From positions 5,360 through 69,359 of the forward strand of contig JAPKZA010000272.1 of the NCBI GenBank assembly GCA_026394015.1: a stretch of 64,000 nucleotides of DNA, read 5' to 3'. The notes under the pieces were generated by a model. The model saw only the letters and a program-made list of their open reading frames with translations, had not been told where the DNA came from and made no database searches. This document shows positions 13,930 to 29,730 of this stretch, piece by piece. Made by a program: the position numbers and the translations under genes. Position 1 is the first letter of the stretch. The number at the start of each line of letters is the position of its first letter. The stretch comes from Acidobacteriota bacterium. Lineage in GTDB: Bacteria > Acidobacteriota > Terriglobia > Bryobacterales > Bryobacteraceae.

Positions 13930-14826
13930 CTACGGGTAAATAGTGGCCAAGGCGGCGGGCAGTTGCGGGAATTGGAACTGAAAGCCGGCTTTGAGGGCGG
14001 CTTGAGGTTGGACGCGTTGGGAGGCGAAGAGAATTTGAGCCATTTCGCCATAAAGGAGCTTGACGGCGAACTCCGGCGCGGGCAGAAAAGCGGGGCGGTG
14101 GAGGGCGCTGGCGAGATCGCGGGTGAACTCGCGGTTGGTGACCGGGTTGGGGGCGACGCCATTGAGCACTCCGGAGACGGACTCGTTTTCAGCGGCGAAT
14201 CGAATCATGCCGACGAGGTCGTCGACGTGGATCCAGCTCATCCACTGTTTGCCGTTGCCGAGTACGCCGCCGACGCCGGCGCGGAAGAGCGGGGTCATGG
14301 ACTCGAGGGCTCCGCCGTCGGCCCCGAGGACGATGCCGATGCGGATTTTGACGACGCGGAGGCCGTGTTCGGCCGCTCGGTCGGCTTCGGCTTCCCAGGC
14401 TGTACAGACATCGGGTAAGAAGCCAGAGGCGGCCTTAGCGCTTTCGCCCAGGACTTCGTCTCCGCGATCCCCGTAGATGCCGACGGCGGAGGCGCAGATG
14501 AGCGTTTTGGGGCGGTGGAGGAGCTTGCCGATGGCGGAGACCAGGTTTCTCGTGCCGATGACGCGGGAGTCGCGGATGCTCTGTTTCGCTTCTGGGGTCC
14601 AACGTTGGGCGACCGGTTCACCGGCGAGGTGGATAATTACCTCTGAGCGCTGCAGGAGTTCGCGGCTTGGCTCCGCGGCGGTGGGGTTCCAGTGCCCGAA
14701 CTGAAAGAGGGGGCTGAGGTCCGGGTTTTTCCGTCCCAGGATGATGACCGAGTGCTTATCCGGTGGGTAGATTTTGAGAAGACGGCGGCCGATGAAGCCG
14801 GTGGCGCCGGAGATGGTCAGAAACAT
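13930..14826 (-). CDS. TIGR01777-type sugar-nucleotide epimerase-like SDR
   Basis: 298 residues from the ATG at 14826. ISGATGFIGRRLL is the NAD(P)-binding motif; IHLAGEPVAQRWT, RDSRVIGTRNLV, SASAVGIYGDRGDEVLGE-like sequence, and RIGIVLGADGGAL with FRAGVGGVLGNGKQWMSWIHVDD define the TIGR01777 (SDR39U1-like, YfcH) family. The family's reaction is not known with certainty. The start codon overlaps the end of the photolyase gene by 10 nt, so translation is probably coupled. Confidence 0.88.
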   Translation of the reverse strand: MFLTISGATGFIGRRLLKIYPPDKHSVIILGRKNPDLSPLFQFGHWNPTAAEPSRELLQRSEVIIHLAGEPVAQRWTPEAKQSIRDSRVIGTRNLVSAIGKLLHRPKTLICASAVGIYGDRGDEVLGESAKAASGFLPDVCTAWEAEADRAAEHGLRVVKIRIGIVLGADGGALESMTPLFRAGVGGVLGNGKQWMSWIHVDDLVGMIRFAAENESVSGVLNGVAPNPVTNREFTRDLASALHRPAFLPAPEFAVKLLYGEMAQILFASQRVQPQAALKAGFQFQFPQLPAALATIYP

Positions 14827-16244
14827 AGTTGCGAAGCTCCAGGAGCCGCGTCGAGGCCGGTTCGTTGCATCTGGGTGATGTCGCGAAGGTAGGAGTCGAC
14901 GTCGGTTTTTCTTTTCATGCCATCGAAGCCCATGAATCGCACCATGCCGAAGATGCTCCGTTCCTGCCAAGGGCGGTCGTGGAGTCCGAAGCACCAAAGG
15001 ACGCCGGTGTAGGTGTTCGGGTCGCGACCGTCGAGGGCGTAGATGTCGTGGATCTTGATCATAGTGCAGAGTGCATCGGCATGAGAGGCGGACCACTCGA
15101 TGATCTTCTTGCCCCAATACATACGGTAATAGCCATGGATTTTGCCTCGGAGAAGCATCTCCTGCTGACAGGCGTTCCAGAGCGGGTCGTGGGTTTGGGC
15201 GTTAAGAAACTGCTCTTTAGTGTAGACGTATTCTCGGTGGTCGGGGGCGTGCTTGGCCAAAGTCTTTTGAGCCCAGTCCGGAAGGCATTCCAATTGATCG
15301 TAGTTGGGGGTGAACCGGGTGAAGTTGAAGGCGAGTTCCCGGCGGACGATCAACTCTTCCAGGAACTCTCCAGCCATGAGTTTGTGTTGGGCGGCGTAGC
15401 CTTCGACGGCGAGGGCGATTTCGAGTGAGCTGATGATGCCGAAGTGGAGGTAGGGGGAGAGTTCGCTCGTGACGTGGTTGGAGGGCGAGTTCTTATCGCG
15501 GGCGTAGCGGGAGAGGCGGTCGACGAGGAAACGCTGGAGGGCTCGTTCTGCGGCGGCGCGGCCGCCGGGGAAGGCGATGGAAGGGGCGACGGAATGGTCA
15601 ATGGCGCAGGCGGCGACGAGGGCGGCGACGTTGGTGGGAGTGACGTTGGTGTGCCAGGCTGGGCGGGGGGCGGAGAAACGATGTTGGGGGCGCAGAGGGG
15701 GGACGGCTTCGAGGTGATCGGGGAGCATGCGCTTCACTTTCGGGCGCATGGAGTAGGCGGCCCACTCGCGCTTGTCGTAGCGATTCATTGGGATGATGCA
15801 ACTGGAATCGACGGCGTGATAAGCGAGGCCGAGTTTGGCGGGGACCGAGGAGTTGTGCCAGGAGGCGATGAAGGTGGGGTAATCGTCGGTGACGAGGAGG
15901 GCGGCGTGGGCGGCGAGCTGGTAGAGGACGTCGTTCGGGTCGGAGGGTTGCTGGCGGAGATAGAAGCAGTAGCCGATGCCGAGTGCGTCGAGCGTTTGCT
16001 GGGTTTCGGGAACACCGGCGACGACGAAGGAGTGGATACGGTCGTTGGCGTGGGGGTAGGTGAACGTGAGGCCTTCGTAGACGAGAACGGGGAGGCCGAG
16101 TTCGTTGGCTTTTTCGACGGCGTAGTAAAGTGCGTGGTTCGATTCGACGCGCCGGTTCATCTGAGACCAGTAGAGGACGTACTTTGATCCGGTTGCGCGG
16201 AGCGGGGCATCGTTGAGGGGGCGGACGCGATGTTCGAGGATCAC
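14817..16244 (-). CDS. phr: Class II CPD photolyase
   Basis: About 475 residues, the usual class II size. Class II features run in order: an N-terminal RVRPLNDAP segment, VLYWSQMNRRVESNHALYYA, ANELGLPVLV, then the FAD-domain signatures LSPYLHFGIISSLEIAL, EELIVRRELAFNFTRF, a DPLWNACQQEMLLRGKIHGY region and DPNTYTGVLWCFGLHDRPW. The enzyme splits cyclobutane pyrimidine dimers with blue light using FADH-. A GTG at 16244 is taken as start because it falls just before the conserved RVRPLN; a TTG at 16280 is possible. It is divergent from the radical SAM gene (48 nt) and overlaps the epimerase gene. Confidence 0.9.
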   Translation of the reverse strand: MILEHRVRPLNDAPLRATGSKYVLYWSQMNRRVESNHALYYAVEKANELGLPVLVYEGLTFTYPHANDRIHSFVVAGVPETQQTLDALGIGYCFYLRQQPSDPNDVLYQLAAHAALLVTDDYPTFIASWHNSSVPAKLGLAYHAVDSSCIIPMNRYDKREWAAYSMRPKVKRMLPDHLEAVPPLRPQHRFSAPRPAWHTNVTPTNVAALVAACAIDHSVAPSIAFPGGRAAAERALQRFLVDRLSRYARDKNSPSNHVTSELSPYLHFGIISSLEIALAVEGYAAQHKLMAGEFLEELIVRRELAFNFTRFTPNYDQLECLPDWAQKTLAKHAPDHREYVYTKEQFLNAQTHDPLWNACQQEMLLRGKIHGYYRMYWGKKIIEWSASHADALCTMIKIHDIYALDGRDPNTYTGVLWCFGLHDRPWQERSIFGMVRFMGFDGMKRKTDVDSYLRDITQMQRTGLDAAPGASQLCF

Positions 16245-27080: not shown

Positions 27081-27668
27081 ATGCAACGATCGATTCGTTT
27101 GGCGCTCGCCCTGGCCGTGGTCGGCCTCTTGGGCTGGCTGGGCCGAATCACGTTCGAAATTCATAAGCAGTCGGTAGTGGATGAGGCGGCGGCGGCGGAC
27201 GTGATTGTGATCATGGGCGCGGCCGAGTATCGGGGCAAACCCTCGCCGGTATTGCGGGCGCGGTTGGACCATGGTTTGGATCTGTTTCAGCAGGGGCTGG
27301 CGCGGCGGATTCTGACGACGGGGGGCGCCGGTGGGGACCCGGTGTTTACCGAAGGGGTGGTGGGGCGGAACTACCTGATGAACCACGGGGTGCCTCCAGA
27401 GGCGATCCTGCTGGAGGGCGAAGGGGAGACGACGGCGCATTCGACGACGGTGGCGGCGGAAATAATGAGGCGCTCGGGGCTGAAGAGCTGCATCTTAGTG
27501 AGCGATGGGTATCACATCTATCGAGCTAAGAAAATGCTCGAATTCCGCGGTTTGCAAGTTTTCGGTTCGCCGCGGGCGATCAAGCAGGAGGCCGGCTTGC
27601 AGGATTGGTGGCTGTACTTCCGGCAGGCGGTCGGGTTCGTTTTGTGGACGGTCGGCATTACGATTTGA
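27081..27668 (+). CDS. YdcF/SanA-family (DUF218) membrane protein
   Basis: 195 residues with one N-terminal membrane segment (about 4-20) and the DUF218 core: ADVIVIMGAAEYRGKPSPVLRARL, RILTTGGAGGD, GVPPEAILLEGEGETTAHSTTVAAE and CILVSDGYHIYRAKKML. Members such as SanA and ElyC affect envelope integrity in enteric bacteria. The ATG at 27081 is taken; another in-frame ATG at 27057 would add 8 residues. The start region is divergent from the methyltransferase gene, and the next gene begins 12 nt downstream. Confidence 0.85.
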   Translation: MQRSIRLALALAVVGLLGWLGRITFEIHKQSVVDEAAAADVIVIMGAAEYRGKPSPVLRARLDHGLDLFQQGLARRILTTGGAGGDPVFTEGVVGRNYLMNHGVPPEAILLEGEGETTAHSTTVAAEIMRRSGLKSCILVSDGYHIYRAKKMLEFRGLQVFGSPRAIKQEAGLQDWWLYFRQAVGFVLWTVGITI

Positions 27669-27680
27669 GGCGCTAGGCCG

Positions 27681-27824
27681 GTGAAGGGCGTGAAGAAACA
27701 ACACCTGCCGAGCAAGGTGTGCAAGACCTGCGGGCGCCCTTTTGTTTGGCGCAAGAAGTGGGAGCGGGATTGGGAGCGGGTGGTTTACTGCAGCGATCGT
27801 TGCCGGGGAGGCAAAACGAAATGA
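27681..27824 (+). CDS. DUF2256 small zinc-ribbon-like protein
   Basis: 47 residues from GTG 27681, beginning [20 protein letters not shown]. Four cysteines in two pairs, [14 protein letters not shown] and YCSDRCRGG, fit the DUF2256 pattern, a short protein usually of 40-60 residues. From memory, DUF2256 is often next to or fused with photolyase/cryptochrome genes, and that is the case here. The stop overlaps the following FAD-domain gene by ATGA. A role in metal or partner binding for the photolyase-like complex is inference. Confidence 0.85.
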
Positions 27825-28588
27825 TGCGACGCGAATTCGGTTCTCGCGAGGAGATGGTCGGGTATTTGAAGGCCGAGTTTCCGGAGGCACTCGTGCACGG
27901 GGAAGCCGTGAGCGAGACGCGCGGCGGTCGACGGGCGGCCCGGGCGCTGTTCGATCGGGTGAATCCGGACCGGTACGCGCGGAGCCGGAACTTTTTGAGC
28001 GGCGCGGTGACGCGGTTGGGTCCGTACCTGCGGCACGGGGTGTTGACGATGGGCGAGGTTCGGCGCGGGGCGCTGGGGCAGCCGAACCCCGAAAAGCTGG
28101 TTCAGGAGTACGCGTGGCGCGATTACTGGCGGCGGGTTTATGGTCAGATTGGCGAGGGCGTTTGGGAGGACCGGGAGGAGCCGAAGCGCCAAGGCCGGGT
28201 CGCGCAACAGCGGGAGTTGCCGGCTGAGGTGGCGGCCGCGGAGACGGGTCTGGCCTGCATGGATGGGTTTGTGGCCGAGCTGAAGGCGACCGGCTACCTG
28301 CACAATCACGCGCGGATGTGGTTTGCCGCCTACGTGATCCATTGGCGGCGGGTTCGTTGGCAGGCGGCGGCGCAATTCTTTCTGACGCATCTGTTGGACG
28401 GCGACCCGGCGAGCAATAACTTATCGTTTCAATGGGTCGCGTCCACGTTTGGCTCGAAGCCGTACATTTTCAATCGCGAAAACCTCGAAAAGTATACGGC
28501 TGGGGAGTATTGCCGCGGTTGTGGACGCAACCAGGATTGCCCTTTTGGAAAGTCCTACGAAGCGATCGATCAGGAGCTATTTCGATGA
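27821..28588 (+). CDS. FAD-binding domain of photolyase/cryptochrome family encoded as a separate protein
   Basis: 255 residues from ATG 27821. It contains only the helical C-terminal half of a photolyase: [32 protein letters not shown], then [41 protein letters not shown] and [19 protein letters not shown], ending with Cys-rich [17 protein letters not shown]. The N-terminal antenna domain found in full photolyases (about 470 residues) is absent. A candidate for it is encoded by the next gene, in swapped order. ATGA overlaps join it to both neighbours. It may repair DNA, sense light or do neither without the partner. Confidence 0.88.
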
Positions 28589-28956
28589 AGACGGTCGTTT
28601 GGATGCACGAAGACGGGCTGCGGCCGCTGTTGCCGGGGGCTCCGGCGATCTTCGTTTTCGAGGACAAAGGGCATTCGCTGAAGCGGATCGTCTTCCTCTA
28701 CGAATGTCTGTTGGAGTTGGACGTCGTGATCGCGAAGGGCGACGTCGAGATGCTCGTGCGGAAGTTTGCGGCGGAGCACGGAGCGGAGCGGATTGTGACG
28801 ACCTTTACCGAGTGCCCGCGCATCACGGCGCAGGCTCGGGAATTGGGCGCGGAGATGGTGAACGACGACCCGTTCATCGCCGCCGCCGGGCCGTACGACC
28901 TGAAGCGATTTTCGCGCTATTGGCAGCGGGTGGAGCGGAAGGCGCTACAGCTTTAA
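28585..28956 (+). CDS. Stand-alone photolyase N-terminal-like alpha/beta domain
   Basis: 123 residues from ATG 28585. The sequence opens with a VVWMHEDGLRP strand-loop resembling the VWFRxDLR start of photolyases. It continues FVFEDKGHSLKRIVFLYECL (compare SLKRLxFLxExL), a GDVEMLVRKFAAEHGAERIV helix-strand, and a closing NDDPFIAAAGPYDLKRFSRYW. It is shorter than a full antenna domain (about 130-170). The gene follows the FAD-domain gene by ATGA. I read it as the missing half of a split photolyase or cryptochrome; fold prediction would settle this. Its 3' end overlaps the convergent LytTR gene by 12 nt. Confidence 0.7.
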   Translation: MKTVVWMHEDGLRPLLPGAPAIFVFEDKGHSLKRIVFLYECLLELDVVIAKGDVEMLVRKFAAEHGAERIVTTFTECPRITAQARELGAEMVNDDPFIAAAGPYDLKRFSRYWQRVERKALQL

Positions 28957-29730
28957 CAGCGTTCGGAGTTTCTTCGTCTGGACCCGGCTGGCCGGGACTT
29001 CGGTGCCGCGCTTGTCGTCCATCTTCAGTTGGAAGCTGGATTTGAACCACGGGATGACTTCCTTGATCCGGTTGGTGTTGACGAGCCAAGACCGGTGTAC
29101 CCGCCAGAAGGTTTCGGGGTCGAGGGTGGATTGCAGCTCTTCAATCGTCTTGTAGGTGGATTCGCCTTCGATGCCCTGGCAGACGACGGTGATGAGTCCA
29201 TCGTCGATGGTGGCGTAGATGATGTCCTGCGAATCGACGATGAAATTGCGGTTCTCGCGGCGGACGAGGATTTTGGCTCGGACGGGCCCGGCCCGGACGA
29301 TGGTAGGCGATTCGGCCAGCGGCTTCTGCCGTTCGGCGATGTTGCGGCGGGCCCGTTCGACGGCGCTGGCGAGCCGTTCTTTTTCGATGGGCTTCAGTAA
29401 ATAGTCCATCGCCTCCAGCTGAAACGCTTCGACGGCGTAGTTGTCGAAGGCCGTGGCGAGGACAAAATGGGGCAGCGGGATATTCTTTTCGCGAAGGCGT
29501 TTGATCACGCCAAGGCCGTCCAGGCCGGGCATCTGCACGTCCATAAAGACAAGGTCGGGTTCGATGTCTTCGATGAGCTTGACGGCTTCGATGCCGTTGG
29601 CGGCGGTGGCGGCGATCTCGATTTCGGGGAAATCGCGGAGCAGGAACGCGAGTTCATCGCGGGCCAAGGCCTCATCATCCACGAGGATGGTGGTGATGGT
29701 TTGCACGGGAGCAGTGACGCGACTTTGCAT
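28945..29730 (-). CDS. LytTR-family response regulator
   Basis: 261 residues. The receiver has VDDE near 17-20, Asp64 (VFMDVQMPGLDG) as phospho-acceptor, and a Lys in LLKPIEKE. The C-terminal LytTR DNA-binding domain starts near 155: ILVRRENRNFIVDSQDIIYATIDDG, then FWRVHRSWLVNTNRIKEVIPW and a RVQTKKLRTLL tail. Such regulators bind paired direct repeats and usually pair with a 5TM-type histidine kinase, which is not in the window. It is divergent from the epimerase gene. Confidence 0.92.
   Translation of the reverse strand: MQSRVTAPVQTITTILVDDEALARDELAFLLRDFPEIEIAATAANGIEAVKLIEDIEPDLVFMDVQMPGLDGLGVIKRLREKNIPLPHFVLATAFDNYAVEAFQLEAMDYLLKPIEKERLASAVERARRNIAERQKPLAESPTIVRAGPVRAKILVRRENRNFIVDSQDIIYATIDDGLITVVCQGIEGESTYKTIEELQSTLDPETFWRVHRSWLVNTNRIKEVIPWFKSSFQLKMDDKRGTEVPASRVQTKKLRTLLKL

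Follow-up and report, generated by a model that had tools for sequence, protein, structure and literature searches.

The stretch of DNA from a soil acidobacterium analysed here (the window, 64,000 nucleotides) carries, at positions 27681-28956, three genes arranged head to tail that encode a DUF2256 protein, a photolyase FAD-domain protein and a putative photolyase alpha/beta protein. The first gene (27681..27824, + strand) starts with GTG and encodes a 47-residue DUF2256 protein (PF10013, E 5.6e-22) whose four cysteines (C14, C17, C37 and C41) form a pattern that resembles a zinc ribbon. The second, a phr4-type gene (27821..28588, +), encodes a 255-residue protein, and the third, a phr5-type gene (28585..28956, +), a protein of 123 residues. 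ATGA stop-start overlaps, read from the sequence, join the first gene to the second (27821..27824, +) and the second to the third (28585..28588, +). Both downstream genes have their own possible ribosome-binding site, likewise read from the sequence, with GGGGAGG (27805..27811, +) 5' of the FAD-protein gene and AGGAG (28572..28576, +) 8 nt 5' of the third gene, consistent with separate proteins made by coupled translation. The initial annotation of this DNA had described the same three genes, both overlaps and a four-cysteine DUF2256 protein of 47 residues, and its coordinates proved exact. Upstream, a DUF218 (PF02698) gene (27084-27668, +) ends 12 nt 5' of the DUF2256 gene; it is kept in only 15 of 96 loci, all from the window's own lineage, and is therefore probably a local operon neighbour. 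At the other end, a gene for a LytTR response regulator (28945-29730, -) is convergent with phr5 and overlaps its end by 12 nt.

A complete class II photolyase, which had been placed 12 kb away, is indeed encoded in the vicinity (14820-16238, -), about 11 kb from the unit. It matches TIGR00591 over its whole length (E 5.1e-131), with a score of 438 bits that lies below the naming cut-off of 550. In seven genomes of the same genus a weak photolyase match lies about as far from phr4, which suggests a conserved neighbourhood. A third photolyase-family protein in the window's own genome (contig C537; L001), of ~450 residues, combines PF00875 and PF03441 and does not have the CPD-type residues seen in canonical class I enzymes. 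Elsewhere, full-length photolyase genes adjoin the phr4/phr5 unit itself, downstream in L012, L014, L019 and L045 and upstream in L026 and L057; they encode two-domain proteins (PF00875 and PF03441) in L012 and L045 and DPRPs in L026 and L057. The label class I is used loosely here, as it also covers L012, L045, L001 and L114, which have a different active site.

Sequence features of the two photolyase proteins

The sole Pfam match of the 255-residue protein is FAD_binding_7 (PF03441, E 1.8e-18), with the best stretch covering profile positions 3-121 of 203, and a sequence search of the PDB returned photolyases with E values down to 2.6e-13; the earlier reading of this chain as a photolyase FAD domain only is upheld. 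The protein stops right after its cysteine motif and has no C-terminal Z-domain of the NewPHL kind. Residues E96, W99, N162, M166 and W205 align with E283, W286, N349, M353 and W392 of the A. nidulans photolyase (1owl), which we take to be dimer or FAD contacts in class I. All five are present in 92 of 96 homologues (the window protein, 15 relatives and 80 loci); of the other four, three have L for M and one has Q for E. The same pocket is seen in L113, a canonical class I sequence, and in NewPHL-like sequences (a label inferred for L122, L165 and L167 from their length and layout), whereas in all four Fe-S bacterial cryptochrome/photolyase (FeS-BCP) sequences compared Q, H and L take the place of E, N and M.

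Four cysteines, the putative iron-sulphur ligands, are found in 96 of 96 homologues: C146 (codon 28256..28258, +) and C231, C234 and C240 (codons within 28511..28540, +). Aligned cysteines also occur in the four FeS-BCP sequences, and judging by these alignments the FAD protein has cysteines like those of FeS-BCPs together with a pocket of CPD type. Position 203 (codon 28427-28429, +), which aligns with the FAD-proximal Trp of class I, is Phe in the window protein and its nearest relatives (15 of 96) and Trp in the others. The window protein also has no tryptophan aligned with W314 of 1owl, so the photoactivation path of this lineage must differ. A FAD-domain tree was built from 30 rows, including the acidobacterial fusions described below and a Deinococcus fusion (L170) and leaving out the picocyanobacterial fusions. 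In this tree the Phr4 and Phr6 rows formed one group (91/86), apart from the FeS-BCP branch (100/100). The window grouped with the picocyanobacterial rows L071 and L098 with a support (91/86) below the 95 mark, and the rows included no named Synechococcus sequence. The window proteins gave no match to PF04244 (DPRP) up to E 10.

The split layout has a published counterpart. In marine Synechococcus, phr4 and phr5 were described as a reversed, split photolyase with iron-sulphur cysteines (Haney 2022, mBio, PMC9426592), Phr6 of Cyanobium as the fused form and Nostoc punctiforme as a carrier of the same gene set; whether Phr4/Phr5 is one frameshifted protein or a heterodimer was left open there (PMC9426592). 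The split and reversed order described in the initial annotation had thus been published in 2022, and the open-licence literature yielded no further paper on Phr4 with Phr5 and, among the matches listed, no further case of a split or two-subunit photolyase. Synechococcus and the window share an adjacent FAD-domain gene and photolyase-domain gene in the same order and a cysteine spacing of 85/3/6, in which window C146, C231, C234 and C240 correspond to C169, C254, C257 and C263 of RS9916 Phr4. In a picocyanobacterial pair (L176), the cysteines fall at exactly 169, 254, 257 and 263 when the FAD protein is read from a GTG start, and the FAD and alpha/beta proteins are 49% and 40% identical to those of the window. 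The window differs in its acidobacterial host, in a 4-nt ATGA overlap in place of the 7-bp gap of Synechococcus, in the Phe that replaces the FAD-proximal Trp and in the DUF2256 gene in front, no such gene being mentioned for Synechococcus in the available part of that paper.

In addition, the FAD subunit looks like a short photolyase-like protein (SPL) of the four-cysteine type, an assignment made from descriptions of SPLs (named in PMC9178010, PMC9498864 and PMC13274461) and not from a reference sequence. As in an SPL, the 255-residue chain has no N-terminal alpha/beta domain; SPLs, however, are described as being without one, whereas here and in the surveyed relatives a separate protein supplies it. 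The apparent lack of this domain is why SPLs have been put forward as ancestors of the photolyase/cryptochrome family. Some SPLs reportedly carry four cysteines, and the type is said to be similar to class I CPD photolyases; an SPL of Rhodococcus fascians, with FAD and an iron-sulphur cluster, is said to repair CPDs. These statements are attributed to Xu et al. (Mol Biol Evol, 2021), who are said to have found the R. fascians protein active with no second subunit reported, which counts against a two-subunit reading.

NewPHL, according to what Emmerich et al. reportedly described in 2020, has its FAD domain first, then a second domain, and a CPD-type active site. The window pair shares this order and active-site type; NewPHL differs in being one chain with a C-terminal Z-domain. 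The Phr5 profile had no match in the three NewPHL-like proteins compared, in which the four-cysteine set is incomplete (NewPHL/Phr7 is described in PMC9426592). In the FeS-BCPs (PhrB; prokaryotic (6-4) enzymes) the four cysteines for a [4Fe-4S] cluster align with those of the window, but these proteins are single chains with the alpha/beta domain first, other active-site residues and a separate tree branch.

The third protein falls below the Pfam cut-off. Its match to PF00875 (DNA_photolyase, E=0.11) scores 12.8 bits against a gathering score of 26.6, no NCBIfam family was matched and a PDB sequence search returned only two chance matches (E 1.3). An AlphaFold2 model (pLDDT 86.9, pTM 0.74) was compared with the PDB using Foldseek, and its top 30 matches were all photolyases or cryptochromes, the best at E 4.6e-3 with a probability of 0.99 and none reaching E 1e-3. 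VIA-align placed the model on the PhrB N-domain with Z 9.5 and an rmsd of 2.7 over 96 residues. Universal stress proteins were close behind (best Z 8.5), so the predicted fold alone would not decide the matter, and it is the fusions and co-occurrence described below that do. A profile-profile comparison of the third-protein family with seven photolyase N-domains gave a probability of 96.5 and an E value of 9.4e-10 over 113 columns. At E<=0.01, PF00875 was matched by 24 of 52 family members and Usp by four, the window member matching neither, and one of the 52 matched DPRP (PF04244, E 0.0025). As the gathering score is missed, membership rests on the photolyase-type alpha/beta fold predicted by AlphaFold2, the profile-profile match and natural fusions, which agree in identifying the third protein as a photolyase alpha/beta domain; its resemblance to the N-terminal domain of one-piece photolyases, put forward earlier from the letters alone, is borne out.

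Recurrence, co-occurrence and fusion of the two genes

The third protein is encoded in 17 close-relative loci, the window's included. In 16 of these all three genes are present, two being cut by a contig end, and only the third gene is present in the one remaining locus, L016. The split photolyase proposed in the initial annotation, with the FAD protein ahead of the alpha/beta protein and DUF2256 in front, is thus supported. The FAD-subunit alignment was also scanned against bacterial and archaeal genomes, and the best 80 loci of at least 573 relatives were used. They come from Acidobacteria, Chloroflexi and Cyanobacteria, plus one labelled Tatlockia; 53 of these loci include the alpha/beta gene and 24 include DUF2256, and phr4 and phr5 may overlap by 4 nt or be separated by as much as 2.6 kb. 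The pair is also present in Deinococcus sp. QL22, again overlapping by 4 nt, and there the downstream gene is annotated as hypothetical. The pair therefore recurs as separate genes in Acidobacteria, Chloroflexi, Cyanobacteria and Deinococcus, although the alpha/beta gene is rare in the class of the window bacterium (6 of 121 genomes). A local frameshift or assembly error is ruled out, since 16 of the 17 close-relative loci share the layout and the genes are separate in four phyla. The contig labelled Tatlockia (L058, a MAG) carries a Phr4/Phr5 pair and may reflect wrong binning or gene transfer. Two Phr5 matches (L142 in G197 and L159 in G255) have one TGA flagged inside the aligned stretch; in L159 an intact 132-residue frame with its own start spans the Phr5 gene.

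Whole genomes were searched for Phr5 where the locus itself had no alpha/beta match (27 loci) or a cut phr5 (L035), 28 genomes in total. Phr5 was encoded elsewhere in 27 of the 28, including all 25 cyanobacteria, and the exception (G206) has Phr4 without a detected Phr5, with phr4 near a contig end. For 21 of the 25 cyanobacterial loci the flanks are a complete 4 kb on both sides, so that phr4 and phr5 must lie more than 4 kb apart there or on other contigs; in Nostoc carneum the distance is ~1.5 Mb, if C1 is the chromosome record. Among 61 relatives, Phr4 (>430 bits) was found in 15 genomes and Phr5 in 16, all 15 Phr4 genomes having Phr5, and the 15 genomes with both subunits also carry DUF2256 on the same contig. 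In a picocyanobacterial family of 41 genomes, Phr4 (>358 bits) occurs in 12 and Phr5 in the same 12. Genomes with neither subunit served as controls (45 relatives and 29 of the picocyanobacterial family), and as all these genomes are kin, the counts are not independent trials. One relative counts against pairing: G020 (98% complete) has Phr5 and no Phr4, its orphan gene being that of L016 (1459-1893, -). This orphan Phr5 may be a relic or may work with another photolyase. Co-occurrence across genomes rules out a chance neighbourhood of phr4 and phr5, and, being nearly strict, it makes it probable that SPLs, said to lack the alpha/beta domain, obtain it from another protein. By itself it is no proof of contact between the subunits, and the complex proposed below is to that extent a prediction from sequence.

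Fusions of the two proteins into one chain always have the FAD domain first. They comprise three proteins from two acidobacterial genomes (L074, L067 and L157; MAGs), one from Deinococcus sp. AJ005 (L170) and those of four picocyanobacterial genomes, and so occur in three phyla. The acidobacterial fusions group together in the tree (99/98) and L170 is placed elsewhere with weak support (80/60), with at least two fusion events being likely. A fusion model, made from an alignment of the FAD-subunit rows and three fusions, had a pLDDT of 73; its FAD half matches photolyases (Z ~16) and its alpha/beta half is weak.

Function of the unit and alternative readings

We infer that the second and third genes probably encode a two-subunit iron-sulphur CPD photolyase, on the basis of features computed directly: the arrangement of the genes, the identities of the domains, the conserved cysteines and active-site residues, and the co-occurrence of the subunits. 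The 255-residue subunit would hold FAD and an iron-sulphur cluster, the latter probably on the four conserved cysteines, and would bind a UV-damaged pyrimidine dimer, most likely a CPD, and repair it via light-driven electron transfer. The 123-residue subunit, corresponding to the alpha/beta domain that one-piece photolyases have at the N-terminus, would probably dock beside the FAD subunit, close it off and perhaps carry an antenna pigment. The DUF2256 protein is co-translated and may act as an accessory.

The strongest alternative is a (6-4) photolyase of two subunits, which is what was predicted for Phr4/Phr5 from the cysteines and the UV-C pattern (PMC9426592). In that study, a phr4 mutant of Synechococcus RS9916 was more sensitive to UV-C and not to UV-B, and in an E. 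coli lexA3 strain with phr deleted, phr4/phr5 gave protection against UV-C and had little effect against UV-B; protection in E. coli did not differ significantly between light and dark (PMC9426592), which counts against a CPD photolyase. The four cysteines of iron-sulphur type are indeed those of FeS-BCP (6-4) enzymes, and VIA-align puts the alpha/beta fold nearest PhrB-type N-domains, although the Z differences are small. We nevertheless regard a (6-4) enzyme as unlikely, since the active-site residues are of CPD type, unlike the four FeS-BCP sequences compared, and the FeS-BCPs form a well-supported branch of their own. Moreover, a gene for a DPRP, which is of FeS-BCP type, lies beside the Phr4 unit in L026 and L057, where the function would be duplicated.

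A cryptochrome-like blue-light sensor, with repair lost or minor and DUF2256 relaying the signal, is less probable still. It would account for the light-independent protection in E. coli (PMC9426592), the presence of several other photolyases in the same genome and the replacement of the FAD-proximal Trp by Phe in the window lineage. However, the repair pocket is conserved in homologues across phyla, the Pfam scan of the two proteins revealed no receptor or output domain and the Synechococcus phr4 mutant has a UV phenotype (PMC9426592), so the suggestion in the initial annotation that the unit is not needed for basic repair and may sense light is not supported. Nor do the additional photolyases argue against a repair role: the window genome has a third, and several photolyases per bacterium are common. 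Finally, it is very hard to credit the third protein as an unrelated nucleotide-binding protein of the HUP/universal-stress type placed here by chance: the nearly equal fit of universal stress proteins, the sub-threshold Pfam score and the few Usp matches among relatives are outweighed by the far more frequent DNA_photolyase matches, the profile-profile E value (from a comparison against photolyases alone), repeated natural fusion to the FAD domain and almost strict co-occurrence with Phr4.

While the split layout was already known from Synechococcus phr4/phr5 and the Cyanobium fusion phr6 (PMC9426592), the breadth of its distribution, the co-occurrence of unlinked subunits, the CPD-type pocket, the link to DUF2256 and the fusions in three phyla are new here. 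As phr4 and phr5 are often unlinked, two proteins and not one frameshifted protein are indicated for most lineages. The picture of SPLs also changes in that, in the surveyed genomes, the alpha/beta domain is present as a separate protein. We tentatively suggest, as a possibility still short of an even chance, that SPLs with four cysteines are obligate two-subunit enzymes and not primitive photolyases of a single domain. Their alpha/beta half would be encoded apart, often megabases off, and would have been re-fused C-terminally in at least three phyla, and some members of the family would have DUF2256 as a third component, with a role in, for example, DNA binding or the assembly of the cluster or of the subunits. 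The alpha/beta half would have been overlooked because it scores below the Pfam cut-off. If true, this would speak against taking SPLs as a model for a single-domain ancestor of the photolyase/cryptochrome family. A light-driven repair enzyme in two separable parts would also be a convenient system for testing the role of the antenna domain.

Association of DUF2256 with photolyase genes

DUF2256 lies directly 5' of phr4 in 24 of the 80 loci, with gaps of -35 to +103 nt and a 4-nt overlap in 12. All but one of these 24 (L099) are Acidobacteria or Chloroflexi records, and no DUF2256 was detected in the other 56 Phr4 loci, which are mainly cyanobacterial. Among the 61 relatives, DUF2256 occurs in 17, Phr5 in 16 and both in 15 (Fisher p 3e-11, a value that ignores kinship). 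The open-licence literature yielded no link between DUF2256 and photolyases among the matches listed; the association seen here offers a first lead to the function of this frequent small protein. A general partnership of DUF2256 with photolyases is upheld only in part: DUF2256 also occurs in places without a photolyase, so it is not a strict partner. Ten other Acidobacteriota genomes with DUF2256 (11 of 119, the window's included) had no Phr4/Phr5 match within 1.5 kb. On plasmids, where 10 of 134 records were examined, a photolyase or cryptochrome gene lies within 3.5 kb of DUF2256 in four of the nine that are annotated.
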